From positions 1 to 53,928 of IMG/VR virus record IMGVR_UViG_3300045996_002424: a stretch of 53,928 nt of DNA; one strand, 5' to 3'. The stretch comes from a virus. Below, one piece after another: positions 2,453 through 17,243 of this stretch. Within the stretch, counting starts at the first letter, position 1. Every line of letters starts with the position of its first letter. The notes below the pieces were generated by a model. The model saw only the letters and a program-made list of their open reading frames with translations. It did no database searches and had not been told where the DNA came from. The position numbers and the translations under genes are program-made.

Positions 2453-2455
2453 GTG

Positions 2456-3057: not shown

Positions 3058-3182
3058 GGGGTTCCTCCGGTGCGGAGCAGGGCTGCGAGGCGTGCCTTGG
3101 TGGTGTCGCTGAGCGGTGGGGCGTGCTCGACGAGTTTTCGGATGAGCGTGTCGATCATGGCGGCGTGTTGGGTGGGAGTCAC
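3054..3182 (-). CDS. Small conserved actinobacterial-type protein (42 aa)
   Basis: Reading GTG 3182 to TGA 3054 gives a small helical protein (pattern TPTQHAAMIDTLIRKLVEHAP...LAALLR) of a kind common beside phage regulators in actinobacteria. Both ends fit overlaps or tight spacing with neighbours. Function unknown. Confidence 0.65.
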   Translation of the reverse strand: MTPTQHAAMIDTLIRKLVEHAPPLSDTTKARLAALLRTGGTP

Positions 3183-3197
3183 GTCGTCTAGACCTTC

Positions 3198-3551
3198 CTA
3201 GGATGCACGAGGGGGTGTGTCCTTTTTTTCTTGGAGCTTGCGCCGTTCGCGGGGGTCGAGGCCGCCCCACACCCCGTCGGGTTGGCCGGTGCGCAGAGCC
3301 CAGGCGGCGCAGTCGTCGCGGGCGGGGCAGGGGCGGCAGATGCGTTTGGCCTTCTTGTAGGCGGTGACGGTGGGGCCGTCGGGGAAGAAGATCGCGGTGT
3401 CGTCGGGGGAGCAGGCGAGGTCGCTGCGGTGGGCGACCGGGGGCATGTCGCGGTAGTTGAGGGTGCCGTCGAAGCGGGGGGCCCGTGAGGGTTGGTTGGA
3501 GGGCCCAATGGGGCGCCCGATGGGGCGCAGGCCGGTGGGTCGGGGGCTCAT
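3198..3551 (-). CDS. WhiB-family iron-sulfur transcription regulator
   Basis: A 117-aa protein with the four cluster cysteines Cys47, Cys72, Cys75 and Cys81 (C-x24-C-x2-C-x5-C) and the GVWGG turn at 93-97, followed by a basic C-terminus for DNA contact. WhiB proteins are actinobacterial regulators that bind sigma factor region 4, and phage homologues can antagonise host WhiB. ATG 3551 overlaps the primase stop as ATGA. Upstream in-frame ATG 3623 would run far into the primase gene and is less likely. Confidence 0.93.
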   Translation of the reverse strand: MSPRPTGLRPIGRPIGPSNQPSRAPRFDGTLNYRDMPPVAHRSDLACSPDDTAIFFPDGPTVTAYKKAKRICRPCPARDDCAAWALRTGQPDGVWGGLDPRERRKLQEKKDTPPRAS

Positions 3552-6145
3552 GCGTTGCCTTCCTCGCTGCGTCGACACTGGTAGTGAGCGTAAGTATTGG
3601 TCGGCCAGGAGCATCGAGGGCATACCTCGTCTAAGTTCCCGACACCCTGGTTTGCGTGGTTCTCTTGGTGTGAACCAGGCGAACCAAGCAGTTGGGAACT
3701 TTTTTCAGTTCCACGCGTAGATGAGGAAAAGTTCCCAACTGCTTGGTGCGCTTGGTTCGCGCCTGGTTTTGGCTGCTCAGGCGGGCTGCCCGGATCTGCC
3801 CCGCCAGGGGCGTCGAGGAGGGTCGGAACGTCTGGTTCTGGTTTCGGCTGGTCGTCGGCGTCGTTGTCGGGGCCGGCCGGGACGAGGCTGTCGGTGAACC
3901 GCAGACCGCGGATGACCGACGGCTTGGCGGGGGGTGGGGAGGCTGCGCGCCACGCCGGCCGGGACAGTCCGGCGGGCAGGGTCTTGGCCTGGATGCGGTC
4001 GGCGTAGACGTAGTCGGGCAGGGCCGAGTGGCCGGTGATGCGCTTCTTGAACTCGGCGTCGCCGAGGGGTTTGCCGCTGTCGGAGCGCCAGGTGCGGAAT
4101 TCTTGGTAGAGCTCGGAGGCGATGACGTAGTAGCCGGGGTCGACGTCGAGGCGTTCGTTGAGGAACCGGAGGATGACGTCGCAGTCCTGCCGCCAGGACC
4201 AGATGGCGGCGTCGACGCTGGGCGGGTTGGGCATGCCGCGCAGGCTGGCGCCGCCGCCGTAGTAGAGGCGGGCGCCGTGCACGAGCCAGGCGAGGATGGC
4301 TTCCTGGACGGCCTTGGTGGTGAGTCGACGCTTGAGGGTGGGGTCGCCGACTCGGTCGTTGGCGGTGTCGAGGGCCTCGCCGTGCTGCTTGAACTTGTAG
4401 GGGAAGCTGATGCGCAGCAGCCGCCGCCAGGTGCCGTGGTCGGTGTCGGTGACGGTGGGGACGTGGTTGGTGTTGAGGAACATCGAGTGGGTGGGCTTCC
4501 AGGAGACGATGTCCTTGTAGAGGTGGCGGCCTTCGATTTCCTGGGCGTCGAGGAGGTCTTTGGCGATCTGGGTGTCGAGGTAGCCGTTCTCGGGAGTTTC
4601 TTCCATGTAGGCGAGGCGGATGCCGCGCAGGGTCATGCGTTCGGGGGTGGCGCCGCCGGTTTGGCGGGTCTTGAGCAGCAGGGTGTTGGGGACTTTGGCG
4701 GCGTAGGTGTTGAGGGTGCGGAAGATGGAGCCGAGCAGGGCGGTCTTGCCGTTGTCGCCGCCGCCGGTGAGCAGGACGAGGCGTTCGGAGGCGTGGCCGG
4801 TGATGGCTTCGCCGAGGACGGTTTGGAACCAGTCGTGGGTGTCGTCGGGTAGCGCGGAGAGGGCGGCTTTCCAGTCCATGCTGGTGGCGGCGGGGTTGTA
4901 GCCGACGGCGGTGATTTTGGTGATGAGCATGGAGGGGTCGTAGGGGGTTTGTTCGCCGGTGCGCAGGTTGATGACGCCGGTGGGGGTGTTGAGGATGTCG
5001 GGGTCGGTGTCGAAGTCGGCGGCGTCGCGCCAGACTCCTTCGATGCCGCGGGCGAGGGCGGTGATGTTGCTGACTTTGGTGCGGGATTGGACGGTGGCCC
5101 AGCCGTCCATTTCGGGGCTGCTGGCGGCGACGGTTTGGCCGGCGGCGACGCGTTCTTTGTGGGTTTCGACGGCGTCGAGGTATTTGCTGAGGACCCATTG
5201 GCGGACGGCTTCGGTGACGATGGGGTCGTCGACGGGTGCCCAGTGGGTGCCGGTTTGGTGGAGCCAGCCGAGGGCGGCGGTGCAGAGGAAGTGGCCTTCC
5301 ATGACTTCGGCTGCGCATAGTTCTGCGAGGCGTACTTCGGTGAATTCGTTGATGCCTTTTTGGGGTTCGGGGCAGGCGCCGGTGCGGTGTTCGATGAGTT
5401 CGTCGAGGGTGCCGCCGGCGTGGAGGTAGTCGTCGACGCCTTTGACGGCGGTGCCGCGGGTTTCGCCGGGGACGACGAGGTACCAGACGCGGGCTGCGCC
5501 TCGGCTTTTGAGGAATCGGCCGAGGCGTTTCATGGCTTGTTGGATTTGTGGTTTTTCGACGGTGTCGGCGTCGAAGCAGATGGTTATTTCGCGGCCTTTG
5601 AGGGCGATGTCTTCCCAGGCGCCGTGGGTGCCGGTGCTGCCGCGCCAGTTCCATACGCCGGCCAGGGCGACGGTGACGACGTCGCGGCTGGTGAGGGCGT
5701 CGGCCTTTTTGATGCCTTCGGTGATCCAGAGGGGTTTGGTGACGTCTTTGATGTAGGGCAGCAGGACGGGGTCGTCGGCGCCGCGGTCGCGGGTCCAGCG
5801 GGGGTGTACGTCGAGGTCGGTGGGCCGGTTCTTGACGCCGACGTACTTCATGGTTTTGCCGTCGGCGGTGCGGACGGCGACGTTGGGCTTCCATTCGTAG
5901 GACACGACGCGGCCGTTGGCGCCCCAGATGGGGGTGAGGCGGCCGGGGAAGTAGCGGTCTTCTTCGGTGGCGAATTTGGGGAAGCCGAGGGATTCGAGTT
6001 CGCGGCGGGGGGCTTGGTCGTTGGCGGTGGGGCGGGTGATGGTGCGGTAGCCGCGTTCGGCGATGACGTCGGGGTGGATGGTGGAGGCGTCGAGTTCGTG
6101 GCGGTGGTGGGGGTAGAGGTGGGTGGTGAGGTAGTCGCTGGTCAT
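3548..6145 (-). CDS. Primase-helicase (TOPRIM-like plus SF3/D5 helicase)
   Basis: An 865-aa replication protein. The N-terminal TOPRIM-like part has Glu143 in WITEG and Asp192/Asp194 in CFDAD. The SF3 helicase has Walker A GGGDNGKT (461-468), acidic Walker B near Glu515/516 in YMEE, the Asn sensor in FLNTNH (556-561) and an Arg pair at 574-575. The C-terminus is a Pro-rich, low-complexity linker followed by CPRC and YQC residues, perhaps a zinc knuckle. The linker region carries a perfect 20-bp inverted repeat. ATG 6145 overlaps the upstream stop. It would unwind and prime phage DNA. No phage polymerase is visible, so host polymerase is probably used. Confidence 0.92.
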   Translation of the reverse strand: MTSDYLTTHLYPHHRHELDASTIHPDVIAERGYRTITRPTANDQAPRRELESLGFPKFATEEDRYFPGRLTPIWGANGRVVSYEWKPNVAVRTADGKTMKYVGVKNRPTDLDVHPRWTRDRGADDPVLLPYIKDVTKPLWITEGIKKADALTSRDVVTVALAGVWNWRGSTGTHGAWEDIALKGREITICFDADTVEKPQIQQAMKRLGRFLKSRGAARVWYLVVPGETRGTAVKGVDDYLHAGGTLDELIEHRTGACPEPQKGINEFTEVRLAELCAAEVMEGHFLCTAALGWLHQTGTHWAPVDDPIVTEAVRQWVLSKYLDAVETHKERVAAGQTVAASSPEMDGWATVQSRTKVSNITALARGIEGVWRDAADFDTDPDILNTPTGVINLRTGEQTPYDPSMLITKITAVGYNPAATSMDWKAALSALPDDTHDWFQTVLGEAITGHASERLVLLTGGGDNGKTALLGSIFRTLNTYAAKVPNTLLLKTRQTGGATPERMTLRGIRLAYMEETPENGYLDTQIAKDLLDAQEIEGRHLYKDIVSWKPTHSMFLNTNHVPTVTDTDHGTWRRLLRISFPYKFKQHGEALDTANDRVGDPTLKRRLTTKAVQEAILAWLVHGARLYYGGGASLRGMPNPPSVDAAIWSWRQDCDVILRFLNERLDVDPGYYVIASELYQEFRTWRSDSGKPLGDAEFKKRITGHSALPDYVYADRIQAKTLPAGLSRPAWRAASPPPAKPSVIRGLRFTDSLVPAGPDNDADDQPKPEPDVPTLLDAPGGADPGSPPEQPKPGANQAHQAVGNFSSSTRGTEKSSQLLGSPGSHQENHANQGVGNLDEVCPRCSWPTNTYAHYQCRRSEEGNA
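3684..3746. repeat. Perfect 20-bp inverted repeat in the primase gene 3' region
   Basis: Left arm 3684-3703 and right arm 3727-3746 are exact reverse complements with a 23-nt spacer; imperfect complementarity extends outwards through GAACC/GGTTC-type repeats. It lies in the low-complexity linker of the primase-helicase. Such a structure could be an origin, a protein-binding site or an intragenic terminator. Confidence 0.8.
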
Positions 6146-6375
6146 GCGAGCAGCCAGAAGATGATGGCGGTGATGGCGATGGTGGAGCTGATCCAGCCGG
6201 CGATGAAGTAGAGGGTGGCGCGGTCTTCGCCGGGGTGGGGGATGTGGTGGAAGCGGTGGCTGAAGACGCGGTCGGTGTAGTGGGTGCGTTGGGTGTGGTT
6301 GAGGCCCCAGAAGTCGGCGTCGCCGTCGATGGTGTTGGGGTAGTCGGTGGTGTGGCGGTGCCGTCCGCGGGCCAT
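6142..6375 (-). CDS. Small membrane protein (77 aa)
   Basis: Basic N-terminus rich in His and Arg, then one hydrophobic stretch at residues 57-77 (LYFIAGW...IIFWLLA) ending the protein, so probably C-terminally anchored with the N-terminus in the cytoplasm. Its stop overlaps the primase start. Function unknown; possibly tethers replication to the membrane, but that is speculation. Confidence 0.6.
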   Translation of the reverse strand: MARGRHRHTTDYPNTIDGDADFWGLNHTQRTHYTDRVFSHRFHHIPHPGEDRATLYFIAGWISSTIAITAIIFWLLA

Positions 6376-6575
6376 CACTGCTCCTGGCAGGTGTGGGGGA
6401 GGGCGGCGGCGTAGCCGGCCATGGCTTTGTGGGGGGCGTGTTCGTGGGTGTGTTCGAGGTGGCCGGTGAGGCGGAACTGCAGGGCGGTCTGGTTGTTGAT
6501 GAGTAGCCAGTGGCGCAGCGCTTCGCAGGCGTGACAAATGGGGACAACGGTGAGGTCTTGAGTGGTTGCGGGCAT
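6375..6575 (-). CDS. Hypothetical His/Cys-containing protein (66 aa)
   Basis: ATG 6575 with AAGGA upstream. Contains CHAC near residues 14-17 and HLEHTHEHAPH near 39-49, suggesting metal binding. Stop shares a base with the next ATG. No family recognised. Confidence 0.6.
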   Translation of the reverse strand: MPATTQDLTVVPICHACEALRHWLLINNQTALQFRLTGHLEHTHEHAPHKAMAGYAAALPHTCQEQ

Positions 6576-6625
6576 GGCGGTATCCTTGGGGGTGACAGGG
6601 GTTCCGGGTTTCGGATCTGAAGAAG

Positions 6626-6652
6626 AGGCTCTCGTTGGCGCGGGAGCCTTTT
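6626..6652. terminator. Rho-independent terminator candidate
   Basis: AGGCTC (6626-6631) pairs with GAGCCT (6644-6649), with a T run to the right and, read leftwards, a T-rich tail. It sits between the MerR/Xis-like gene and the gene at 6375 and could attenuate early leftward transcription. Confidence 0.5.
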
Positions 6653-6658
6653 CTGTGT

Positions 6659-6844
6659 TCAGGCGGCGGTTCGTTGATGCTCCCGGGGTGGGTTGAGCAT
6701 CGCTTCGAGGTCCGTTTTGCGGATGCGGACGAGCCGGCCGAATTTCTGGTAGGGCAGGGTCCCGTCGTACCTGCGGGCGTCGATGGTCTGTAGGGAGCAG
6801 TTCGCGATCGTGGCTGCTTGCTGGCGGGTGATCCACTCGGTCAT
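6659..6844 (-). CDS. MerR/excisionase-type helix-turn-helix protein (61 aa)
   Basis: Compact winged-HTH sequence (WITRQQAATIANCSLQTIDA then a wing ending in RIRKTDLEAML), typical of the excisionase/MerR-like family. In integrating phages such proteins direct excision, but no integrase is present in this window, so it may instead be a repressor or replication factor. First gene of a leftward unit, with a repeat-rich regulatory region upstream. Confidence 0.75.
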   Translation of the reverse strand: MTEWITRQQAATIANCSLQTIDARRYDGTLPYQKFGRLVRIRKTDLEAMLNPPREHQRTAA

Positions 6845-7063
6845 GTCCGGAACCTACCATCACTGGATACGTCTCCTCAGCACTTGGCATCACTCGGCAT
6901 GTCTTGATATGTGTCGGGTGTGGGGTGTGACCCGGCGCCCTCTCGACACCACCGGGCCTATGGCGGAGGCGCACCGAGTGGCGGAGCGTGGGCGGCCGGG
7001 TCACACCGGTCCCTGCCGGTCGCAACCCACGGGGCAGGGGCGGGACCGGACCGGCAGGGACGC
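6845..7063. promoter_or_regulatory. Early leftward control region
   Basis: A 219-bp gap upstream of the MerR/Xis-like gene. On the minus strand AGTGATG occurs at two places plus a related CAAGTGCTG within about 45 nt, arranged like direct-repeat operators. No clear -35/-10 pair can be fixed by eye. No ORF here looks coding. Confidence 0.4.
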
Positions 7064-7702
7064 CTAGAAGGGCGGTTCGTCGCTGAACGCGGCCGGGGCG
7101 TACGGGGTGACCACCGGCCGGGCCTGCTGCTGTTGGGGTTTGCGCAGGGCGAACTCGGGGGTCGGCGCCGGCCCGTGCAGCCCGGCCCGGTCCACGATGG
7201 ACGCGGTGTCCGGGTACGCCCCGGCGCCGGCGGCCAGCACGGGGGTCATGTCGGGCTTGCGGCCCTCCCCGGCAGCCGGCGGCCGGTAGGTGAAGGAGTA
7301 CAACTTGGCGTCCTGGCCGCCGCCGGTGGAGGGTTCGGTGCCGGTCCAGGCGCAGGACAGGTGCCCGCCGATGAGCAGCCCGTCACGTCCACCGCCCCCG
7401 GCGACCACGGCTTCCCGCAGGGCGTTCTCCATGCGCTTGCCGCGCACGAACAGCCGCCGCTCGGTGATGCCGTTCTCGTCCTGCTTGCCGGTGTCGATGG
7501 TGATCTCGTACTGCAGCTTCGGGTCGTTGGGCAACCCCGTGCGCAGGTTGACCGGGTGGTTGACGACCTGCTTGTCCTGCCAGTACAGGGGGATGTTGGT
7601 CTTGTACTCGGTGTGCTGAGTGCGGCGGGCGTCGACGATGATCCCGTCGACCTGCTCACCGATGCGGGTGAACCGGGCCCCCGGTGCGCGAGTCTCGAAC
7701 AT
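7064..7702 (-). CDS. SSB-like single-stranded DNA-binding protein candidate
   Basis: A 212-aa protein with a strand-rich N-terminal ~150 residues, a Gln/Pro linker and the C-terminal tip SDEPPF. That tip resembles the acidic hydrophobic end by which SSBs recruit partner enzymes (DDDIPF in E. coli). It lies next to a RecB/Cas4-like nuclease and the primase-helicase unit. The OB fold cannot be confirmed by reading; the tail and context are the evidence. Confidence 0.6.
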   Translation of the reverse strand: MFETRAPGARFTRIGEQVDGIIVDARRTQHTEYKTNIPLYWQDKQVVNHPVNLRTGLPNDPKLQYEITIDTGKQDENGITERRLFVRGKRMENALREAVVAGGGGRDGLLIGGHLSCAWTGTEPSTGGGQDAKLYSFTYRPPAAGEGRKPDMTPVLAAGAGAYPDTASIVDRAGLHGPAPTPEFALRKPQQQQARPVVTPYAPAAFSDEPPF

Positions 7703-7705
7703 GCG

Positions 7706-7966
7706 TTATTCCTCCCGAGGGTGGTTGCGGACGAGCCGGTCGACGGCGATGGCGAGGAGTTCGGCGAGGCCGACGTGGTCGACCTCGCGGGCGAGGAACG
7801 TCGCGAGGCCCGCGAGGGCCAGTTCCGGGTTGGGCGCCATCTGCGGGTCGGTGGTGATGGCGGCGTAGTGGGTGTCGAGCAGCCCGTCGAGGGCCTCGCT
7901 GAGGGTGGCCTTGATCTGGTCGAAGGTGGCGAGGCTGGCCGCGGTGGGCTTGAAGTCGTCAGTCAT
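7706..7966 (-). CDS. Hypothetical replication-module protein (86 aa)
   Basis: All-helical, mildly acidic protein, coupled by a 4-nt overlap to the RecB-like nuclease gene upstream and 3 nt from the SSB-like gene downstream. No domain recognised. Start ATG 7966; the longer in-frame extension reads into the nuclease gene and is rejected. Confidence 0.65.
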   Translation of the reverse strand: MTDDFKPTAASLATFDQIKATLSEALDGLLDTHYAAITTDPQMAPNPELALAGLATFLAREVDHVGLAELLAIAVDRLVRNHPREE

Positions 7967-8997
7967 GCTGCGGAACCTAGCTGACGCTTGCGGTCGGCGG
8001 CGGCGGCGGTGTGTTCGAGGGTCCATTCCCCGGCGGCCAGGGCGGTGCGCCACACGGTCACCAGCTGCGCCGGGTCCGTCGCTTTCTTGATCTGTTCCAG
8101 AACACGGTCGGTGTCGAGGGCGAGTTGGGTGTGTTGCGGTGGGGTCCACGGCCAGCCCATGCGGCGGGACTTCGCACGTACTTCACGGATGGCGAAGGCC
8201 AGCTTCGCGGCTTCCCACCCTTGTTCGAGGTCAACTTCGTACAGGGTGCAGGTGCCGGACCGCACGGGGATGTGGATGACCATGCCGCGGGTGATGTCGA
8301 GGTCCGGGGGCAGCGCCTCCAGGTCTCCGGTGGTGGGGTTGAGAACGGCGTCGGCGTGGGCGTACTGGGCGAGTTGGATGGCGATGGCGAGCCAGTCGAA
8401 GATGTACTGCTGGCTCTTGAGGTCGCCGACGACGAGGCGCCCGTCGGGCAGGCGCAGCAGCCGGTCGTAGGTGCCAGCGGTCTGCACGGTGGTGTTGACG
8501 ACGATCCGTTCGATGTGCTCGACCGGGCGGGCGATGCGGTGGTGGTCGAGGGTGCGTTCGTAGACGGCGAGGTCGGGCAGCAGGGCGACGGGGACGTCGA
8601 TGTCGGACAGGCGACCGGCGTCGTGGTACTCGGTGACGGTGTGCAGGGCGGTGCCCCACCCGGAGCCCTGGTTGGCGCCGGCGATGTCGGCGGCGGTGTC
8701 GCAGATGGCGTCGAGGGCGGCCTTGAGTTCCTTGGCCTCGCTGCTGTCGGCCAGGATCAGGGCGTCGGTCAGCTGCGGGACGGTGGTCAGCAGGGTGGGG
8801 TCGGCGGCGGCGCCTTGCAGGACCATCCGCCGCTTCCACCGGGTGAGGGCGGTGGTGTCGTCGAGGGTGTGGGCGAGGGTGGTGGCCCGGGTCCAGGGGC
8901 GCATCACCCCGGTGTGGGGGGTGGGCAGCAGGTAGCGGCCGAACCGGTCACGTTCCGGTTCGGGGCGCAGCCCGGGGATCTCCGGTGGCCTATCCAC
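7963..8997 (-). CDS. RecB/Cas4-like PD-(D/E)xK exonuclease
   Basis: A 344-aa protein with the RecB-family layout: His119 in GTALHTVTE, Asp178 in TYDRL, Asp192/Lys194 in GDLKS, and the Q-x3-Y motif at Gln208/Tyr212. Homologues are encoded in many actinophages and are expected to process DNA ends for recombination. No Fe-S cysteines are visible, unlike true Cas4. It starts with GTG 8997 overlapping the upstream gene. Confidence 0.85.
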   Translation of the reverse strand: MDRPPEIPGLRPEPERDRFGRYLLPTPHTGVMRPWTRATTLAHTLDDTTALTRWKRRMVLQGAAADPTLLTTVPQLTDALILADSSEAKELKAALDAICDTAADIAGANQGSGWGTALHTVTEYHDAGRLSDIDVPVALLPDLAVYERTLDHHRIARPVEHIERIVVNTTVQTAGTYDRLLRLPDGRLVVGDLKSQQYIFDWLAIAIQLAQYAHADAVLNPTTGDLEALPPDLDITRGMVIHIPVRSGTCTLYEVDLEQGWEAAKLAFAIREVRAKSRRMGWPWTPPQHTQLALDTDRVLEQIKKATDPAQLVTVWRTALAAGEWTLEHTAAAADRKRQLGSAA

Positions 8998-9160
8998 GGG
9001 TCACCGCCCGCTGGGCGGGGCAGCCTCGCCGGTCGTGGTCGCGTTGTTCGTCGCGGTTACGGGCGGCGGCGGAGCAGTGCAGGCACTGCTGCCAGGCGGT
9101 GAATGGGTCGGTGGATTCGGTGTGGGTTTCCCACTGGTGGGTGGTGGTGGGTTCAGTCAT
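8990..9160 (-). CDS. Small zinc-finger-like protein (56 aa)
   Basis: Too short for usual ORF calling. ATG 9160 to TAG 8990 gives a protein with CLHC and a later RRGC, plus His residues, consistent with a small zinc site. Overlaps the nuclease start by 8 nt and the upstream gene by 8 nt. Confidence 0.55.
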   Translation of the reverse strand: MTEPTTTHQWETHTESTDPFTAWQQCLHCSAAARNRDEQRDHDRRGCPAQRAVTRG

Positions 9161-9326
9161 GGGCTGTCCGCCAGAGGCGGTGGTGGCCGGTGAGGGGGCC
9201 GTGGCGGTGTTCGGCGCAGGCTGCCCAGGTGCGGGGGCCCAGGCGCAGCATCTTGCGCCAGAGGGGTTGGTGGGCGGCGACGAGGCGGTAGCGGGGCGCT
9301 TCGTGGCAGGCGTAGCAGGACCTCAT
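9153..9326 (-). CDS. Small Cys/His-rich protein (57 aa)
   Basis: ATG 9326 overlaps the upstream stop. Starts MRSCYACHE and has a later CAEH, a C-x2-C plus C-x2-H metal-binding pattern. One of three consecutive tiny zinc-binding proteins in this operon; function unknown. Confidence 0.55.
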   Translation of the reverse strand: MRSCYACHEAPRYRLVAAHQPLWRKMLRLGPRTWAACAEHRHGPLTGHHRLWRTAHD

Positions 9327-9514
9327 GCGGCACCTCGGGTGGGGTAGGGGTGCAGCAGGGGGTTGCGGTCGCGGTCGCAGGAGGCGCGGTGGGCCCTAGG
9401 TGGTTGTCCGTCGGTGCGGTAGACGCCGCAGGAGGGGCATTGGTTGTCGGCGCGGCCGTGTTGGGCGGCGTCGATCTGTTGCATGCAGTAGTCGTGGGGG
9501 GTCAGGTCGCTCAT
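9323..9514 (-). CDS. Small zinc-ribbon-like protein (63 aa)
   Basis: Contains CPSC and downstream HRASC, with another Cys early. Coupled as ATGA on both sides. Function unknown. Confidence 0.65.
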   Translation of the reverse strand: MSDLTPHDYCMQQIDAAQHGRADNQCPSCGVYRTDGQPPRAHRASCDRDRNPLLHPYPTRGAA

Positions 9515-9840
9515 GCGGCGACCTCGGGCTGGGTGTCGGGTTGGTCGTCGGCGGGGGTGAGGGAGCGGACGACGGTGAGGAGGTCTTCGAGGCTGGCGAG
9601 TAGCCAGGGGTGTACGGCGCGCAAGTCGCGGCCGAGGACGGCGTTGGCTTGTTGGCTGGCGCGGCCTCGGCGGCCGGCTTCGCGGAGTTTCTCGACCTGG
9701 AGTTCGCGGACCTTGTCTTCGAGGTCGTCGTCGGTGAGGTCGGGCCAGCGGTGGCGGGCGATGTTGCGGAGGCGTTCGCGTTCGGCGGCGCGGGCGTTGC
9801 GGAGGATGGCTGCGGTGGTTTCGGCTGCGGTGGGTGCCAT
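9511..9840 (-). CDS. Hypothetical coiled-coil-like protein (109 aa)
   Basis: First gene of this leftward unit. Residues 10-60 are a long charged helix with Arg/Glu/Leu spacing, then a second helical segment and an acidic tail. ATG 9840 is chosen because upstream in-frame extension enters the non-coding control region. No family recognised. Confidence 0.65.
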   Translation of the reverse strand: MAPTAAETTAAILRNARAAERERLRNIARHRWPDLTDDDLEDKVRELQVEKLREAGRRGRASQQANAVLGRDLRAVHPWLLASLEDLLTVVRSLTPADDQPDTQPEVAA

Positions 9841-9956
9841 GGCGGTGGCCGGCCCTCCCTCACGATTCGCGGGGAACCCGCCTGCGTGTGGGAGAGGGCC
9901 TGTGGCGCGGACCGGGTGTGCCGTCCTTCGTCCGCCGGTTGGCACGTGCCCGTTGG

Positions 9957-9985
9957 TTGAGGCCTGGTGCGTCGACGGTTATGGT
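9957..9985 (+). promoter_or_regulatory. Sigma70-type promoter for the GGA-hairpin RNA
   Basis: TTGAGG (9957-9962), 17-bp spacer, TATGGT (9980-9985). Predicted start is near 9992, just before the first hairpin of the RNA below. Confidence 0.6.
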
Positions 9986-9991
9986 GAAGTA

Positions 9992-10121
9992 CGGCGTGGG
10001 CGAGTGGAGTCGCCCTGTCGCCGGTTCGGCCCTCTGGGAGCGCAGAGGGTTCGGGTCAAGTTGTGGTTCGAAACCGCCCAGGTCCCCTGTGAACTGGATA
10101 TTCATGGGGGCCTGGGCTTTT
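9992..10121 (+). ncRNA. CsrB/RsmZ-like sponge RNA candidate (GGA apical loops)
   Basis: About 130 nt between a good promoter and a terminator, with no convincing ORF. Hairpin 1: GGGCGA (9998-10003) pairs with TCGCCC (10010-10015), loop GTGGAG. Hairpin 2: CCCTCTG (10030-10036) pairs with CAGAGGG (10043-10049), loop GGAGCG. The terminator hairpin (10076-10117) has an inner stem GTGAA/TTCAT closing the loop CTGGATA. So three of the main hairpins expose GGA in a 6-7-nt loop, the known recognition element of CsrA. The window also encodes CsrA (14860-15027). A role as CsrA antagonist is inferred, not shown. Confidence 0.55.
10076..10121 (+). terminator. Rho-independent terminator of the GGA-hairpin RNA
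   Basis: GCCCAGG (10076-10082) pairs with CCTGGGC (10111-10117) and is followed by TTTT. Inner pairs CCCC/GGGG and GTGAA/TTCAT lengthen the stem. Confidence 0.7.
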
Positions 10122-10568
10122 AACACGCGTTCAATTAGCACATATGTTCGGGTGCCCGCGGGATAGAGCCGTGGACAGTAAGGCCAAGCTTAAGCAGGTA
10201 GCGTCACGTTCCGCAAGGATGGTAGGGCGTGAGCCGCATCGGCCGAACGGTTGAGTGACTGTCGTGGCATCGGGTCGTTGTGCTGCGGTTATGCCCCGTG
10301 ATAAAACCCCCCATGGGGTATTGAGCCCAGCACTGTGGTAATGGTCTGACCTTATACTCTGGGTGACGATCCGATGTGGATCTTGCCACATTGGGAGCGA
10401 GCCCAGGGTGACGCGGAGCACTGCACGACCTGCATGTTTCCGCAAAAGACCCGACCATGCGTCGACCGACACGCTCCGGTGATGTTCCCGTGCTGGGGTC
10501 CACTCGCACCCCTTTCCCTGTCGTGCTAGCGTCGACGTTGTCGACACGCATGTGCCAAGGAGGGCAAG
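10122..10568 (+). promoter_or_regulatory. Control region of the main rightward operon
   Basis: No convincing gene. A -10-like TATACT is at 10353-10358 and TAGCGT at 10527-10532. The inverted repeat GTCGAC-N3-GTCGAC at about 10531-10545 overlaps the presumed start of the operon transcript and is a candidate operator. A CCCC-AT-GGGG hairpin followed by TTTT on the minus strand lies near 10305-10320. The segment near 10213-10222 (GCAAGGATGG) resembles a CsrA-type binding sequence. Confidence 0.4.
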
Positions 10569-11057
10569 TTGATCGTCACCGGTTCCCCCCACGACGAAGG
10601 CGCCGAACCGGCCGCCAAGGCCCGGCTGCAAGACACCCTGCGCGAACTCGAAGACCTCGACCGCGAGGTGGACCAGCTGACCGAGCGGCTCAAGCTGCTA
10701 CGCCGCCGCCAGTCCCAGCTACGCGGACAGCGCGAACGTCTGATCCGCGAAGTCTCCGGCCGGCCCCCGACCCTGCCGAAACCACCGCACGTGAGCGCCG
10801 AGAAGTACTTCGACGCCGTCATCGGCTGGGTCACCGACGTCGCCAAGGAAGGCGACGCCGACCGGGCCGCCCTGCTCCTCATGGCCCGGCTGCGCGAGCA
10901 CCCCGGAACCAACGGTCTGCTGAACTCGGACCTCCAGGGCGAGCTCCTGCTCACCGTCATGCGCGAAGGCCCCGACGGTGTCATCCAGTTCGTCACCAAC
11001 CTGCCCCGACCTGCCCAAGGGAAGGAGACCGATGACCGCGCGCGAGATCAGGGCTGA
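10569..11057 (+). CDS. Coiled-coil protein, first gene of the rightward operon
   Basis: TTG start 9 nt after an AAGGAGGGC ribosome-binding site. The 162-aa product has a heptad-rich coiled coil at about residues 17-60 and a helical C-terminal domain. No family recognised. Translation is coupled to the next gene by overlap (11032-11057). Confidence 0.65.
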   Translation: MIVTGSPHDEGAEPAAKARLQDTLRELEDLDREVDQLTERLKLLRRRQSQLRGQRERLIREVSGRPPTLPKPPHVSAEKYFDAVIGWVTDVAKEGDADRAALLLMARLREHPGTNGLLNSDLQGELLLTVMREGPDGVIQFVTNLPRPAQGKETDDRARDQG

Positions 11058-11454
11058 CTGCCCTCGCTGCCAGGCGTCCGGGACGATCAGCGTCCGCCGG
11101 GTGCTGACGGCCAAGCCGCTTGGCACGTTCTCGCTGGCGGGCGCGCAGATCAAGGTGTCCGCCGTCGAGTCCGCCGTCGCCGAGTGCTCGGCATGCGACC
11201 TGTCGGTGGTGGGCCATCTGGAAAACGCGACCTTGAGCCCGGACGGGCGGGCGTTCACCGGCGGGCACTTCGTGTCCACGGCTAGCGCGCCGAAGCTGAC
11301 GGGCTCAGCGTGCAGCTGGTACGAGGGCGATCCGATCGAGGACGTGCCCGACGATTACAACGGGCCGTGCATCCACTGCCACCAGCCCCGTGATGCCCAC
11401 GGCCCGGACGACACGGTTACCGCGCCGTATTCAGGCGGGGTGAATCGTGGCTGA
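11032..11454 (+). CDS. Zinc-ribbon protein (140 aa)
   Basis: ATG 11032 follows GAAGGAGACC. Two Cys pairs near the N-terminus (CPRC and later CSAC) and a C-terminal CIHCH motif suggest one or two zinc sites. No enzyme motif seen. Part of a long run of overlapping small genes. Confidence 0.65.
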   Translation: MTAREIRADCPRCQASGTISVRRVLTAKPLGTFSLAGAQIKVSAVESAVAECSACDLSVVGHLENATLSPDGRAFTGGHFVSTASAPKLTGSACSWYEGDPIEDVPDDYNGPCIHCHQPRDAHGPDDTVTAPYSGGVNRG

Positions 11455-11686
11455 CATTCCCCAGGTGGAAGCAGACGCCCAGCAGTGGCATGACGCCCAG
11501 GTGGAAGCAGACCCGGAGCACGAACAGTTTTCGTCGTGCTGGTGCTGCTGCTGGTCTTGCGACCCCGATGCGACCGGCGACAAGGGCAATCCGTTCTATA
11601 CCGCCGCGCAGGCTGGGATGCGTGCTGAGCGCGCTGCGAGCGATACCGGTTCGAATTCAACATCTGAAGAAAAGAGGGATTTGTGA
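11447..11686 (+). CDS. Small Cys-cluster protein (79 aa)
   Basis: GTG start overlapping the upstream gene. An unusual block, SCWCCCWSC, sits near residue 30, flanked by acidic segments; six cysteines in a short span suggest metal binding. No family recognised. Confidence 0.55.
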   Translation: MADIPQVEADAQQWHDAQVEADPEHEQFSSCWCCCWSCDPDATGDKGNPFYTAAQAGMRAERAASDTGSNSTSEEKRDL

Positions 11687-11922
11687 GTAACGATCTGCAC
11701 CTGGCGGCCATCTTCTTCTGGTCCGCCGCCGTGCTGTTCCTGATCAGCGCCGTGTACTCCGCGGTCTTCCCGCAGGACGTGCGGGTGTGGCGGGCGACCC
11801 TCGCCGCCGGGTTGGTGACGGTGGCGGGAACGTTGGGAATGGTGTTCTGGACCGTGGGCTCTGCGGTCAGTGAGTTGCAGAAGAACCTGTCGGAGATCGG
11901 CTCCTCGTTCCCCGGGTCGTGA
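11683..11922 (+). CDS. Two-span membrane protein (79 aa)
   Basis: GTG 11683 after GAGGGATTT. Hydrophobic segments at residues 8-27 and 41-62 give two membrane spans; the C-terminal tail is short and amphipathic. Function unknown. Confidence 0.6.
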   Translation: MSNDLHLAAIFFWSAAVLFLISAVYSAVFPQDVRVWRATLAAGLVTVAGTLGMVFWTVGSAVSELQKNLSEIGSSFPGS

Positions 11923-12194
11923 GCGGGGGTCGTGAGCTGTGGGGCGCCACGGAGGCTCAGGCCCACCTTGGCGTCTCCCGGCAGCGCATCGGTCAGCTGG
12001 CGCGGGCGTACCCGCGGCTACTGCCGGTGGTGTTCAGGAACCCGGTCACCGGTAAACGGTGGTGGTTGGCTGACGACTGGCGGGCGTTCGCGAGGATTCC
12101 CCGGCCAGCTGGCCGGCGGGTCGGCACCGGTGGCCGCACCGGCCTGGCCGAACATCCACCTGAGACGATCCGGGCCACCGACAGATTTCGTTGA
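11919..12194 (+). CDS. MerR-like HTH protein (91 aa)
   Basis: Residues 6-55 read as a winged HTH (ATEAQAHLGVSRQRIGQLAR, then a wing ending KRWWLADDWRAF), the form seen in phage DNA-binding proteins of the excisionase/MerR type. Basic C-terminus. GTG start coupled as GTGA to the membrane-protein gene. Confidence 0.65.
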   Translation: MSGGRELWGATEAQAHLGVSRQRIGQLARAYPRLLPVVFRNPVTGKRWWLADDWRAFARIPRPAGRRVGTGGRTGLAEHPPETIRATDRFR

Positions 12195-12208
12195 AGGGTC
12201 CATCTCTA

Positions 12209-12388
12209 ATGGACGGTGTGACCGACGACAAGGAACAACCGACGTACACCAGGGCCGAGGTGGATGCCGCAGTTGCCGAGGCGCTGCGACGCGTGAGGCG
12301 GGAGCTGGAGCACTGGGAGTGGTACGGCGCGGTGCCTCATGTGGAACACGTCGCCGACGCTCTCGGGGTGCAGATCCCCGATGAGTGA
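12209..12388 (+). CDS. Hypothetical protein (59 aa)
   Basis: ATG 12209 follows GAAGGGT; TTG 12191 overlapping the upstream stop is an alternative start. Central charged helix (VAEALRRVRRELEHWEWYGAV). No family recognised. Confidence 0.55.
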   Translation: MDGVTDDKEQPTYTRAEVDAAVAEALRRVRRELEHWEWYGAVPHVEHVADALGVQIPDE

Positions 12389-12410
12389 CCGAACCCAAGG
12401 AGGGGTTGTT

Positions 12411-12635
12411 GTGAATGTGCTGATGTTGCCGGTGCGGCGCCCGCTGACCGTCGACGACGCGATCGAGGTCCTCGACGAGTTGGCCGGGCAGCAGCTGCCG
12501 GTGGTGCTGGCCGCGGATCAGGCGGTGGTGCACCTGTTCCCGCAGCGGGACATGACCACCCGGGAAGAGGTGCGGGTGCTGCGGTGCTGCTCCGCGCACA
12601 CCGACGCGAGGTTGGTGTGGCACCCATGCCGCTGA
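12411..12635 (+). CDS. Hypothetical protein (74 aa)
   Basis: GTG 12411 is chosen because AAGGAGG lies just upstream; ATG 12381 is in frame but poorly spaced. The product has a helix at DDAIEVLDELAG and a C-terminal CC...C pattern. Possibly zinc-binding; function unknown. Confidence 0.55.
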   Translation: MNVLMLPVRRPLTVDDAIEVLDELAGQQLPVVLAADQAVVHLFPQRDMTTREEVRVLRCCSAHTDARLVWHPCR

Positions 12636-12934
12636 AGCACGACGACCACCGGCTGTCGACGAGGGTGTCGCGGCGGCCGAAGAGGAACGACAGCCCGCCG
12701 GCCCACGAGTTGCGGTCGCTGATGGTGCACCGCTTGCGGGACACGTTCAAGGTGGTGTTCCGGCGCAGTCTGCGTGGTGGTCAGGTGAGCGCGTTCTGCG
12801 AGTACTGCGATGGGTGGTCCGCGCACCTCGATGAAACTGGGATCACCACGGTGTTCACGTGTGCCGGGTGTTCGCGCACGTTCCAGCTGGAGTTCGCGGT
12901 GTTCTCCGAGGTGGAGGAAGTGGTGGAGCCGTGA
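12626..12934 (+). CDS. Zinc-ribbon protein (102 aa)
   Basis: Basic N-terminal half rich in Arg/His, then CEYC and CAGC pairs 20 residues apart, a standard zinc-ribbon spacing, and an acidic tail. Possible nucleic-acid binder. Overlaps the upstream gene by 10 nt. Confidence 0.65.
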   Translation: MPLKHDDHRLSTRVSRRPKRNDSPPAHELRSLMVHRLRDTFKVVFRRSLRGGQVSAFCEYCDGWSAHLDETGITTVFTCAGCSRTFQLEFAVFSEVEEVVEP

Positions 12935-13332
12935 ACACGGCCACGGTTGTGGCGGTGGTCGTCATCATCGGTTCGATATTCGCGGCACTGATCGCAGATG
13001 GGGATGGCCGTGGTCTGACATCACAGCCCGGGTCTATGCGATCGTGGGGTGGATTGTCCGGAACCGAGGGGGCGGGAGTTTATCGCGTGGCCAGTTCATC
13101 GCCGAATGTGCGACTGAAGACCGGTACGAACGACCTGTTTCACACGGTCCAGGCGCGGGTCGCCGGCGAGTTGAGTTTGGGTTTGCGGGGTGTGACCGCC
13201 GACATCCTGGTGGCGTCGATGCTGCGCATGTGTACGACGCCGACGAACTTCCCCGCATTGGTTCAGGCAGTGGTTGCCGAACGGGAACACCGAGCGAAAG
13301 GACCCGACGACGCCGATGGCGAAGTGGACTGA
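12931..13332 (+). CDS. Hypothetical membrane-anchored protein (133 aa)
   Basis: GTG 12931 overlaps the upstream stop as GTGA. Residues 4-23 form a hydrophobic span; the C-terminal ~65 residues look like a normal helical soluble domain. The middle (about 13010-13110) is less protein-like here than in another forward frame, so a frameshift or two overlapping small genes cannot be excluded. Confidence 0.5.
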   Translation: MNTATVVAVVVIIGSIFAALIADGDGRGLTSQPGSMRSWGGLSGTEGAGVYRVASSSPNVRLKTGTNDLFHTVQARVAGELSLGLRGVTADILVASMLRMCTTPTNFPALVQAVVAEREHRAKGPDDADGEVD

Positions 13333-13480
13333 GGTCGACAACGAGACCGGACAGACGAGGGAGGTGGAGCTGCCGGACGAGCTGGCCGAGCTCGTCGACC
13401 GGGCGTTGAACCCGCCTGCGGGATACGACCCGTACGACAAGATGACGCGCCGCACTCTGCCGGTGGACGACCAGGATTGA
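13316..13480 (+). CDS. Small acidic protein (54 aa)
   Basis: ATG 13316 lies inside the end of the upstream gene, with GAAAGGA before it. Acidic, helical middle (LPDELAELVDRAL). No family recognised. Confidence 0.55.
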   Translation: MAKWTEVDNETGQTREVELPDELAELVDRALNPPAGYDPYDKMTRRTLPVDDQD

Positions 13481-13588
13481 GTGCTAGTCGTCACGTCCAC
13501 CGCAGCAGCCGAGCAACCCGAAGCCGCGGCCGAGTACGCAGACACCGAAGCCGAACACGCCGCGCCGACCGTGAATGAGTCTGAGTGA
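13481..13588 (+). CDS. Tiny Ala/Glu-rich protein (35 aa)
   Basis: Starts at GTG 13481 directly after the previous stop and overlaps the next GTG start by 4 nt. Very acidic and Ala-rich. Called because the overlaps match the style of the operon; could be a non-functional spacer. Confidence 0.4.
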   Translation: MLVVTSTAAAEQPEAAAEYADTEAEHAAPTVNESE

Positions 13589-13842
13589 ACACCAAAGCCG
13601 CCTGCGTCTACGCGCTGCTGGTTGTCGCCACGATGGTGATGCCGCTGAAGGACGCCATGTGGCGGATGCGGGCGGCGGCGCTGGCCGGCGTGGTGGCGCT
13701 GGTACTGCTCGTCGCGAACCTGGTGACAGTCAGGCTGTGGGCGGCGCTGGCGTGGCTAATCGCAGTTTTGCTGGCGGCCCGCCTCGGTGAGGTCGCCCTG
13801 AATCAGTGGATGAAACAACTCAATGAACCAAAGAAACGCTGA
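13585..13842 (+). CDS. Small polytopic membrane protein (85 aa)
   Basis: Three hydrophobic stretches (about residues 4-19, 29-48, 50-67) and a basic C-terminus. GTG start coupled as GTGA. Function unknown. Confidence 0.6.
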   Translation: MNTKAACVYALLVVATMVMPLKDAMWRMRAAALAGVVALVLLVANLVTVRLWAALAWLIAVLLAARLGEVALNQWMKQLNEPKKR

Positions 13843-13878
13843 GGCGCGGGGGATCTGCTAAACGGAAGGAACCGAACT

Positions 13879-14202
13879 GTGGAATACGCCAAGCCCATCA
13901 TCGCTGGAATAGCCGTGGGACTTTTCGTCCTCGGTGTGATCGTGGGGTTTCTGATCCGCGGTGTCGTCGGCCTCGCTTTCGGTGAGGATCGGATCGTGCC
14001 GACGGACCCGATGCCCCGCAAACCGGAGCGTGACCCGGCCGCTGTCGGGCCGCTGATCGGGGTGGCGTCAGTGCCCGACGACACACCCCCCGCCCGACCG
14101 GGCAGACATAGCCTGGAAGACCGACCGACCACAGACCTCAAGCACATGATGCGGCCGTACATCGGTGAGCCGCCTGTGGTACGGCCCCCGACCCCCCACT
14201 GA
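13879..14202 (+). CDS. Single-span membrane protein (107 aa)
   Basis: GTG 13879 after GGAAGGAACC. One N-terminal membrane span (residues 6-34) and a Pro-rich, probably extended C-terminal region. No known family. Followed by a ~100-nt spacer before the next gene. Confidence 0.6.
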   Translation: MEYAKPIIAGIAVGLFVLGVIVGFLIRGVVGLAFGEDRIVPTDPMPRKPERDPAAVGPLIGVASVPDDTPPARPGRHSLEDRPTTDLKHMMRPYIGEPPVVRPPTPH

Positions 14203-14303
14203 AAGTCCAGGACACAGGAAAGGTGGGGCCCGCGGTGCGGGTGATGGAGAGGCAGCACCGCACCGTGGACCCCACGAACACAGAGATGAAGGGACCATCT
14301 CCC

Positions 14304-14654
14304 GTGCGAAACGATACACAGACCGAGCCAATGACGAGCCGCGGGTTCAAGGACTTTTTCTCCCGCACCCGCGACAACGACGTCAAGATCGTGATCAACG
14401 ACGTTCAGGTTCCGGTGGCGGCGCTGACCTACGACCCGAGCTCAGACAACTACCTGATCCTGCCGGTCGAGGACGAGTACTACCGGATCGCGTTGGAGCC
14501 GGATCTCGACGTGTACGTTCGCCGGGACTGGAAGGTCGCCCACGACAACGGTCGCACCTGCACGCGCTGCGACAGGGCGATCCGTATGGGGGAGGCGTAC
14601 CTGCCTCACGACGACAGCCACGTCCACGTGCACTGCCCAAAGAGCGTGTCGTGA
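14304..14654 (+). CDS. Hypothetical protein with CTRC zinc knuckle (116 aa)
   Basis: Start uncertain: GTG 14304 (after AAGGGACC) or ATG 14286. Strand-rich centre followed by RTCTRCDRAI and HVHVHC, a LIM-like C-x2-C/H-x3-C arrangement. Coupled as GTGA to the following gene. Confidence 0.6.
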   Translation: MRNDTQTEPMTSRGFKDFFSRTRDNDVKIVINDVQVPVAALTYDPSSDNYLILPVEDEYYRIALEPDLDVYVRRDWKVAHDNGRTCTRCDRAIRMGEAYLPHDDSHVHVHCPKSVS

Positions 14655-14860
14655 CCCGGCCGGCGCTGACGCTGAAGCGTGACGGGTTGGTGTTCGAGCT
14701 GGTGCCCGGCGCCGACCGGCGCCGCTGGGTGTGTCGTGACTGCTCGAACCTGCCCGGGGCGTGCAGCCGCACCGGCTGCGCCGGGCGCCGGCCGCGCGGG
14801 TGGCGCCGCCAGACCGGTGGCATCACCGAGAACACCGCGAACGAAAAGGGGGCCGCTTGA
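14651..14860 (+). CDS. Small Cys-rich basic protein (69 aa)
   Basis: GTG start overlaps the upstream stop; its TGA shares the A of the csrA start codon. Contains CRDC...CSRTGC, a four-Cys cluster, and a basic Arg/Gly tail. Probably zinc-binding; may be translationally coupled to csrA. Confidence 0.6.
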   Translation: MTRPALTLKRDGLVFELVPGADRRRWVCRDCSNLPGACSRTGCAGRRPRGWRRQTGGITENTANEKGAA

Positions 14861-15027
14861 TGCTGGTGCTGTCGCGCCGCATAGACGAAGCCGTGCGTAT
14901 CGGCGACGACGTTGAAGTGATCGTGGTCGGTATCAAGAAGGGTGAGGTGCAGCTGGGTATCAGCGCACCCCGCAGCGTGGACGTGGTCCGCGTGGAGCTC
15001 GATGTTCAGGAGGCAAGGGGCTCATGA
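14860..15027 (+). CDS. csrA: CsrA-like RNA-binding regulator
   Basis: A 55-aa protein aligned end to end with CsrA: it begins MLVLSRR, keeps Arg6/Arg7, Gly15-Asp16, Gly24, Gly33, Ala36-Pro37 and Arg44, the key RNA-contact residue; His43 is Val and Glu45 is Val. CsrA dimers bind GGA in hairpin loops and block or stabilise mRNAs. CsrA is not a normal component of actinobacteria, so a phage-borne copy is notable. ATG 14860 overlaps the previous stop; the stop overlaps the next ATG (15024). The GGA-loop RNA at 9992-10121 is a candidate partner. Confidence 0.88.
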   Translation: MLVLSRRIDEAVRIGDDVEVIVVGIKKGEVQLGISAPRSVDVVRVELDVQEARGS

Positions 15028-15491
15028 CATTGGAGAACGACGACCTGGTGCAGGCCTGCCTGGACTTGGCCGGGCGGGCTGGGGCCACCGGTGTGGAGAT
15101 CGGGTTCGTCCGCGAGGATGTGCCGTCCGAGCAGGCCGGCTGGTTCGCCTTCGCCAAGTACAGGGGTGCACGGATCTCCGTCGAGGAGCAGACGTCTCCG
15201 GCGACCGCGGCGCTGAGCCTCGCGCACCGCATCCTGCGCGGTGCGCGGTGCCGGTGCGGGGACATGGTGTCGCTGTCGGACCGGCAGCCGGGCTGCCGGT
15301 GGCGGCTGGAAGGGGCCCGGTGGCAGCCCGGCTGCAACGCACCGACGATGAAGGTCCCTGAGGGGTTGCGGGGTGACTACACCGGCATGGCCCGGGTGTA
15401 CGCCGAGCAGGCGCCGGCGAACCGGCGGGAGCGCCGCCGCCGCCGCGGGTCGGGTCCAACGCGGGGGTGGGGTCAGTGGCTGGGCAACTGA
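15024..15491 (+). CDS. Hypothetical protein with Cys cluster (155 aa)
   Basis: Coupled to csrA as ATGA. The N-terminal ~75 residues look like an alpha/beta fold, followed by RCRCG and PGC cysteines and a strongly basic C-terminus (RRERRRRRG), suggesting nucleic-acid contact. No known family. Confidence 0.6.
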   Translation: MTLENDDLVQACLDLAGRAGATGVEIGFVREDVPSEQAGWFAFAKYRGARISVEEQTSPATAALSLAHRILRGARCRCGDMVSLSDRQPGCRWRLEGARWQPGCNAPTMKVPEGLRGDYTGMARVYAEQAPANRRERRRRRGSGPTRGWGQWLGN

Positions 15492-15697
15492 ACGAGATGT
15501 TCATGGTGACCCTGCGGTACCCGGACGGGGTGATGGAGGAATCGATGGTGACGTTCCACCCCCTGCTGGTGGACGCGGTGGCTGAACGGGATGCCACCGC
15601 CGACGACGACGAGGAGCAGATGGTGCGGGTGTTCCGGGTCGTGCAGGTGTCGGACGAGGAACTACAGCAGGCGCGTGAGCAGAAGGGGCAGGCATGA
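15476..15697 (+). CDS. Hypothetical acidic protein (73 aa)
   Basis: Start GTG 15476 or ATG 15497. Short strand-rich N-terminus (FMVTLRYPDG) and an acidic middle; directly upstream of parA and overlapping it as ATGA, so co-translated with the partition genes. Confidence 0.55.
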   Translation: MAGQLNEMFMVTLRYPDGVMEESMVTFHPLLVDAVAERDATADDDEEQMVRVFRVVQVSDEELQQAREQKGQA

Positions 15698-16482
15698 GTT
15701 TGCGGTTGGACGTGCTGAACAACAAGGGTGGGGTCGGCAAGTCGACGATCACCCTTGTCCTGGCCGAGGCGGCAGCCCGGATGGGCAAGCAGGCCTTGGT
15801 GGTCGACATGGACCCGCAGGCGAACGCGACGCGGCGTCTGGGAGTGCGGTCGACGAAGACGCTGACGACGTGCCTGCAGATGGGAGTGCAGCAGGGCGAG
15901 GCGTCCAACTACATCCACGGCCACCGGTGGGCTGGGTTCGAGCACCTCGCGATCGACGTGCTGCCCGCCAACCTGGACCTGGAGGATCGGGCGTTGGAGG
16001 CGGGGCAGCCGGGTGCCCACTACCGGCTGCGGCGGGCGCTGTTCGGCGTCGACGACCGCTACGACCTGACGATCATCGACTGCCCGCCCACCCTGAAGGG
16101 GCACCTGACGACGCTGTCGCTCGCGGCGCTGGACGGCCCCGGTGATGTGGTGCTGGTGCCGCTGGAGCCCGAGTACGACGCTGTGGCGTCGGCCCGCCGC
16201 ACCGTCGACTACGTCCAGCAGTGGCGTGACGACCTGGGTGTGCCGAACGCGCGGGTGGCGGGGGTGATCGTGAACCGTGTCCGTGGCACGAACCTGCATG
16301 GGATCCGGGAGGCGCAGTTCGTGGACACGCTGCCGGATGCGTTGCTGCGGGTGCCGTTGCGGGCGCGGATCGCGGAGCTGCAGGACGCTGGCCGGCCGCT
16401 GTCGAGCGACCCGAGCATGAAGGACATCCTCGAACAGTTCGAGGGCCTGGTGAAGATGTTGCTGAAGGAGGAGAAGGCGTGA
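15694..16482 (+). CDS. parA: ParA-family partition ATPase
   Basis: A 262-aa protein with deviant Walker A KGGVGKST (residues 11-18), Walker A' VVDMDPQANAT (Asp38/Asp40) and Walker B-like IIDCPP. There is no N-terminal HTH, so this is a small type Ib-like ParA. These ATPases pattern the nucleoid and segregate low-copy replicons with a centromere-binding partner. The next gene overlaps by 4 nt and carries the candidate centromere. Supports plasmid-style maintenance of the prophage. Confidence 0.9.
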   Translation: MSLRLDVLNNKGGVGKSTITLVLAEAAARMGKQALVVDMDPQANATRRLGVRSTKTLTTCLQMGVQQGEASNYIHGHRWAGFEHLAIDVLPANLDLEDRALEAGQPGAHYRLRRALFGVDDRYDLTIIDCPPTLKGHLTTLSLAALDGPGDVVLVPLEPEYDAVASARRTVDYVQQWRDDLGVPNARVAGVIVNRVRGTNLHGIREAQFVDTLPDALLRVPLRARIAELQDAGRPLSSDPSMKDILEQFEGLVKMLLKEEKA

Positions 16483-16928
16483 GCGCGCGACGTGAGCCGC
16501 CACCGGTGGTGGATGACAACCCGGCGACCCCGCCGCCGCGGCGCGGGCGGGGGTCGTTGGAGCAGGCTGCGGTGTTCGAGCAGGAACAGCCGGCTGGTGC
16601 GGGGGATGACCAGGACCCTGGTGTGCTAGCAAGCTTGCTAGCAAGCAATGGGGATGGTGAGCAGGCTGGTCCGGACACGGCGCAGGTGATGGCCGGGCTG
16701 GTCGGGCTGCGCCGCCGGCCGGTGGACCCGATGAACGACTACGTTGCCGATGGCACCCGGGAGTTGCGGTGGGTGCAGGCGGCGATCGCACACCAGGCGG
16801 CGTTGACCGGGCAGACGCAGCAGGAGATCAAGCGCGACGCGCTGCTCGGGGTCCGGCCGATCTCGGCGGAGCTGCTCGACGCCCACTACAAGGATACGTA
16901 TGGGCAGGATCGGCCACGTCATGGCTGA
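16479..16928 (+). CDS. ParA partner: putative centromere-binding protein
   Basis: A 149-aa protein. The N-terminus is Pro/Glu-rich and disordered-looking; the C-terminal ~60 residues are helical (WVQAAIAHQAALTGQTQQEI), resembling small ParA partners rather than full ParB. No CTPase-type ParB motif is present. The gene contains a 20-bp perfect palindrome (16624-16643) repeated at 50294-50329. Position and site make it the likely ParB analogue. Confidence 0.6.
   Translation: MSARREPPPVVDDNPATPPPRRGRGSLEQAAVFEQEQPAGAGDDQDPGVLASLLASNGDGEQAGPDTAQVMAGLVGLRRRPVDPMNDYVADGTRELRWVQAAIAHQAALTGQTQQEIKRDALLGVRPISAELLDAHYKDTYGQDRPRHG
16624..16648. repeat. parS-like palindrome inside the partner gene
   Basis: TGCTAGCAAGCTTGCTAGCA (16624-16643) is a perfect 20-bp palindrome made of two TTGCTAGCAA-type units; the right unit continues into AGCAA. 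It is translated in the partner gene. A longer version stands at 50294-50329. Confidence 0.7.
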
Positions 16929-17139: not shown

Positions 17140-17243
17140 TCCTCGGTGCATCGAAGGCGCCGTCATGGATGGGGTGGGTGCTGCTCGGATTCGGGTTGGC
17201 CTGCACCGGAGTTGCGGGTTGGATGCTCGGGCGTCGGTGGTGA
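17127..17243 (+). CDS. Tiny membrane protein (38 aa)
   Basis: GTG 17127 to TGA 17243. After an N-terminal 12 residues, residues 14-34 are a hydrophobic Gly-rich span ending in GRRW. Overlaps both neighbours; function unknown. Confidence 0.45.
   Translation: MVELILGASKAPSWMGWVLLGFGLACTGVAGWMLGRRW

Follow-up and report, generated by a model that had tools for sequence, protein, structure and literature searches.

The virus seems to have soil actinobacteria as hosts. It appears to express a small, folded RNA from the DNA that separates its two principal early gene sets. Through base pairing with the mRNA of the replication genes, this RNA probably adjusts their expression; for sequestration of the phage's own CsrA by the RNA, the evidence is weak. 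If it is real, the small RNA identifies the chief regulatory site in a group of actinobacterial phages about which little is known, and antisense control of phage replication could be tested in a simple way in actinobacterial hosts.

Gene organization and probable host of the phage

The whole stretch of DNA that was analysed (hereafter the window) is a virus record of 53,928 bp (IMG/VR IMGVR_UViG_3300045996_002424) with a G+C content of 67%. Its right end carries the portal, capsid, protease and large terminase genes. The leftward gene block (981-9840) contains an exonuclease and a D5-type primase-helicase, and the rightward gene block (10569-20666) contains csrA, a ParA ATPase and a LuxR-type regulator.

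The Cas4/RecB-like exonuclease of the leftward operon (7963-8997, minus strand) was assigned to PHROG 466 (E 2e-75). Comparison with actinophage exonucleases by tblastn showed that its type is common in phages of Mycobacterium, Streptomyces and Gordonia. The D5-type primase-helicase of the same operon lies at 3548-6547 (minus strand). The first leftward gene (9511-9840, minus strand, 109 aa) has a coding signal in codon statistics, and a family search with its product returned no match. Also in the leftward block, a small protein encoded at 1708-2037 matches the phage sigma-factor family PHROG 3282.

The ParA-like partition ATPase (15694-16482, plus strand) lies near csrA in the rightward early block; ParAs from plasmids of Streptomyces and other actinobacteria share 36-40% identity with it. 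Among the window proteins scanned, which represent part of the ORFs of a record that may be incomplete, none was recognized as an integrase. The plasmid-type ParA, together with the lack of an integrase so far, suggests a plasmid-like prophage state. The host is probably an actinomycete, since a Planotetraspora genome holds a prophage whose portal is 61% identical to that of the window.

Two further features of the window were observed. At 21201-21244, an inverted repeat of 18 bp without mismatches, flanked by T-tracts, forms a strong bidirectional terminator, which separates the rightward early block from leftward genes. Beside the major capsid gene, two similar neighbouring genes (46329-46745 and 47023-47511) apparently represent a tandem duplication, and related contigs match both of them at the same place.

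A likely small-RNA gene at 9957-10121

The preliminary description of this segment had placed a TTGAGG-N17-TATGGT promoter and a terminator around about 130 nt, and our analysis recovered both. The promoter, predicted from consensus (9957-9985, plus strand), ranked first among the 1693 candidates in the window when scored with actinobacterial -35/-10 weights, which were set by hand from the actinobacterial consensus. It was absent from the matches of a stock E. coli-type promoter scan. The pattern TTGA-N19-TANNNT occurred twice in the window (0.36 expected). The 5' end of the putative small RNA was estimated from the position of the -10 box at about 9992, giving a predicted non-coding transcript of about 130 nt (9992-10121, plus strand).

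Secondary-structure prediction, which had been proposed as a check, gave a fold of -81 kcal/mol for the segment 9957-10121 (z -3.6 versus shuffles). The likely transcript (9992-10122, 131 nt) folded at -71.3 kcal/mol (z -4.6), and none of the shuffles folded as well. Three hairpins with GGA loops were predicted on the plus strand: hairpin 1 (9992-10023) with the apical loop GUGGAG (10004-10009), hairpin 2 (10029-10050) with the apical loop GGAGCG (10037-10042), and a 17-bp terminator hairpin with the apical loop CUGGAUA (10094-10100), followed by TTTT (10076-10121). The loops of 6-7 nt reported earlier (GTGGAG, GGAGCG and CTGGATA) were therefore present as described, with GGA unpaired in the predicted fold.

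The terminator stem (17 bp, -31 kcal/mol) was the fourth strongest of 228 hairpin/T-tract combinations in the window; the stronger ones were two overlapping matches of the terminator at 21201-21244 and one at 37314. A stricter terminator scan did not list it because its tail is only TTTT. The top-ranked promoter is thus found about 130 nt before the fourth-strongest hairpin/T-tract, on the same strand and with a non-coding gap between them. Codon statistics showed no coding signal in any of the six frames over 9860-10540, and a minus-strand ORF across the element (9860-10141) was rejected as coding by the same statistics. Rfam returned no match for the whole window, and no tRNA was detected by ARAGORN, which was run because of the GGTTCGAAACC motif.

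Because promoter, fold and terminator are present and none of the six frames is coding, the segment is likely a small-RNA gene with its own predicted promoter and terminator. By prediction it also has the build of an antisense RNA, that is, its own promoter and terminator, a length within 70-220 nt and no coding capacity, with a short tail of four T.

The complementary strand of the element folded even more strongly (z -6.0) than the plus strand. Three consecutive inverted repeats that adjoin the replication and parA modules and fold well on both strands might act as duplex DNA, for example as an origin, a partition site or an operator. However, no iterons or notable direct repeats were present in the region, and the layout of promoter and T-tract is that of a transcription unit. 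We regard such a DNA element as highly improbable.

The small RNA probably lies opposite the leader of the replication operon

Three of the 11 best promoter candidates in the 54 kb of the window fall within 260 nt at the element. Besides the promoter of the small RNA, a rightward early promoter candidate (TTAACA-N17-TATGTT, 10120-10148, plus strand, rank 7) begins at the terminator of the small RNA and was also detected in the E. coli-type scan. A leftward candidate (TTGCGG-N18-TAAGCT, 10187-10216, minus strand, rank 11), identified by consensus match, may serve the replication operon. It was the best leftward candidate in the intergenic region, and the stretch from the element to the first leftward gene contained none of similar score. 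The rightward and leftward candidates in 10120-10216 point towards each other across a few tens of bases, and transcription interference between the two early operons is possible.

If the leftward promoter is right, the mRNA would start at about 10180, and its leader of about 340 nt would contain the full complement of the small RNA. This putative 5' leader (9841-10180, minus strand) was delimited by the positions of the promoter candidate and the first gene, and its fold has a z of -3.5. The small RNA would then lie opposite the probable 5' leader of the exonuclease/primase operon. The gene order fits an RNA opposite the replication message, and the overlap hinges on the consensus match at 10216-10187.

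The sequence, folds, non-coding nature, promoter and terminator ranking and gene order were observed. From them we infer transcription with its start sites, and the antisense pairing with its consequences, as follows. The divergent control region would separate the leftward replication operon (exonuclease, primase-helicase) from the rightward early operon (csrA, parA). The RNA of about 130 nt would be made rightward from 9957-9985 and would end at 10121, where the rightward early promoter starts. The leader of the replication operon, starting from 10216-10187, would run through the DNA of the element on the opposite strand. The hairpin loops of the small RNA would make the first contact with their complements in the leader loops, and the pairing may lower the expression of the replication operon or cause an early end of its transcription, like OOP or plasmid counter-transcribed RNAs. 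The terminator of the small RNA would keep its transcription out of the rightward early operon.

Judged from this context, the chance that the small RNA is a cis-antisense regulator of the replication operon may be a little short of even. This reading is favoured because both strands fold far above shuffles, as expected of an RNA and its target, because the best leftward candidate lies upstream of the element with no similar one nearer the first gene, and because the leftward genes are replication genes. In a plasmid-like prophage with ParA and no integrase found, antisense control of replication would also make sense. On the other hand, the leftward promoter is a consensus match ranked 11th, and a leader starting to the left of the element would have no overlap with the small RNA. 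Opposite strands are necessarily complementary throughout, so their match is no proof. A structured leader without a separate small RNA would also agree with the minus strand's stronger z-score.

In such a structured leader or attenuator, the minus-strand hairpins would govern how the replication mRNA is translated or whether it is terminated early, and the plus-strand promoter would be incidental. The folds of the minus strand over the element and of the whole leader agree with this explanation, but the best promoter is directed rightward, as is the T-tract, and two G-U pairs of the plus-strand terminator stem become A-C mismatches on the minus strand. We consider it unlikely. The G-U asymmetry, considered as a pointer to the plus strand, lost weight because the minus strand has the stronger z-score.

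The unit of promoter and terminator directly before the rightward promoter could also be a simple insulator, or the gene of an independent small RNA that targets host or phage mRNAs in trans, with no special role for GGA or antisense pairing. No target or relative was identified for such an RNA, however, and the context of the replication operon would be left unused. This explanation appears improbable to a similar degree as the structured leader, and cis-antisense control of the replication operon is the reading that we carry forward.

A CsrB/RsmZ-like sponge is an unlikely reading of the GGA loops

The RNA had originally been described as a CsrB/RsmZ-like sponge. Such a sponge would use its three GGA loops to capture CsrA of the phage or the host, one or two dimers in all, and would thereby lift CsrA control of phage or host mRNAs. 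Consistent with this idea, all three strong hairpins expose GGA in short apical loops (unpaired probability 1.0 each), as sponge RNAs do, and when the segment was shuffled 2000 times with its dinucleotides kept, three GGA loops appeared only once. When 140-nt windows were scanned over the whole stretch on both strands, the element was the only one of 5380 with three GGA loops. The pattern was also found in 3 of 14,500 windows of related phage contigs in which no csrA was found, and at this rate about 0.6 such windows are expected per 54-kb phage. That a phage genome contains one place with three GGA loops is thus unremarkable; the rarity is that the three loops coincide with the best promoter/terminator unit. 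The pattern was chosen post hoc, as the preliminary description could have picked any motif.

The CsrA site consensus is A-N-GGA, and the A at -2 is contacted in RsmE-RNA structures (PMC4066749, PMC7652899). None of the three sites in the element has the A-N-GGA core and no GGA has an A at -2, whereas E. coli CsrB and CsrC, run through the same script, have 7 and 5 such cores, respectively. The GGA density of the element (2.3 per 100 nt) equals the background (3 triplets observed in 131 nt versus 2.3 expected), against 6.0 in CsrB and 5.7 in CsrC. Selected CsrA ligands mostly have at most 4 contiguous base pairs (PMC7652899); unlike most of them, the element has long and very stable stems of 6, 7-8 and 17 pairs. 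Similarity to a known Csr/Rsm family was also lacking, as a search of the region against Rfam at E 10 gave no match.

Deviating secondary sites are known (PMC4066749), so weak binding of CsrA by the element is possible. Gammaproteobacteria have RNAs that antagonize CsrA; outside the proteobacteria with Csr RNAs the known antagonist is the protein FliW, which serves in B. subtilis and Campylobacter (PMC7652899, PMC7366521). Given the missing A-N-GGA cores, the background GGA density, the long stems and the lack of an Rfam match, the description as a CsrB/RsmZ-like sponge was not sustained. We consider a CsrA sponge very unlikely, and cis-antisense regulation fits better.

The phage encodes a genuine CsrA

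The csrA gene noted earlier at 14860 (14860-15027, plus strand, 55 aa) proved genuine. Its product matches Pfam CsrA with 62 bits (E 4e-17) and B. subtilis CsrA of known structure (1t3o) with 44 bits, and the key RNA-contact residues L4, R6 and R44 are conserved. Such a gene 4.7 kb from the element speaks for the sponge. So does the absence from the phage CsrA of the C-terminal extension found in many of the actinobacterial CsrAs examined, a few of which are also short; this extension is the part bound by FliW in B. subtilis (PMC7652899), and no FliW is encoded in the window.

The proposal that one phage carries both the regulator and its antagonist RNA thus held in part: the genuine csrA and a likely small-RNA gene stood, and the sponge identity of the RNA did not. 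An actinophage with CsrA and a compact three-site RNA antagonist would have a self-contained Csr switch, whose RNA would perhaps also be antisense to the replication leader. We regard this combination as far-fetched. If true, the switch would operate in hosts for which FliW, a protein, would be the only antagonist expected, and an RNA with the dual role of sponge and antisense regulator might link the CsrA level to replication.

The distribution of csrA was also quantified. Of 297 genomes taken from the class to which the Planotetraspora genome belongs, 37 carried the gene; the Planotetraspora genome with the related prophage is itself without csrA. None of 50 portal-related viral contigs, most of them fragments, contained the gene. 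A search of 50,697 phage records with an actinobacterial CsrA gave 87 matches, and the organism groups listed for them were all proteobacterial phages or unnamed, with no actinophage. The phage's own CsrA matched no phage record. The presence of csrA in phages is known from a survey of 30 phages, in which the table lists proteobacterial hosts and metagenomes (PMC7366521). A csrA gene in an actinophage is outside the proteobacterial phages where it is known, and it raises the question of the role of a phage CsrA in such hosts; in the family that holds the related prophage, only 14 of 343 genomes have the gene.

Relatives of the region

No DNA similarity to the region was found in phages or in plasmids. 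Viral contigs searched with the exonuclease, primase, csrA, ParA and 647-aa proteins gave no locus covering the element region. The closest relative is a contig of a different metagenome, whose structural genes are essentially identical to those of the window and which does not extend to the element region. A scan for the hairpin pattern gave 7 matches, no more than chance for a collection of that size. The matches of a covariance model built from the single sequence of the element are at chance level. Neither the match in 1 of 297 actinobacterial genomes (25.8 bits, E 7e-4 per genome, about 0.2 expected over the set) nor the one in a phage that has a related exonuclease (10.8 bits), which lies in the gap between divergent genes but on the other strand, was accepted.

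Comparison with known systems

The element shares GGA in short apical loops with CsrB/CsrC and RsmX/Y/Z, and csrA is present in the same genome. In contrast, E. coli CsrB has 22 GGA in 369 nt and CsrC has 14 in 246 nt, compared with 3 in 131 nt here, and the G+C content and stability of the element are much higher than those of the Csr and Rsm RNAs. The csrA phages of proteobacteria F116, phi297 and Vibrio phage 234P8 share a small early-region csrA with the window; no Csr sRNA family was found in the searched parts of these three phages. In Pseudomonas phage phi297 (17225-20372), csrA and a ParA-like gene lie within about 3 kb on one strand, as in the window.

ColE1 RNA I, R1 CopA and pIP501 RNAIII are plasmid RNAs of about 100-150 nt with several stable hairpins and 6-7-nt loops, and they lie opposite the leader of a replication gene. 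The element shares with these counter-transcribed RNAs the size, the multi-hairpin build and the 6-7-nt loops, and the phage also has a plasmid-type ParA. The plasmid RNAs target a rep gene or primer, whereas the putative target here would be a phage replication operon, with the leader, the pairing and the copy control all conditional on the proposed model.

Among phage RNAs, OOP RNA is a precedent for antisense control (PMC12197685). Lambda OOP overlaps the cII coding sequence, whereas the putative small RNA here would overlap an untranslated leader; similarity in sequence is not to be expected. As proposed for the element, lambda OOP and aQ and P22 sar are short phage RNAs with their own promoter and terminator, located in the early control region and opposite a phage message.
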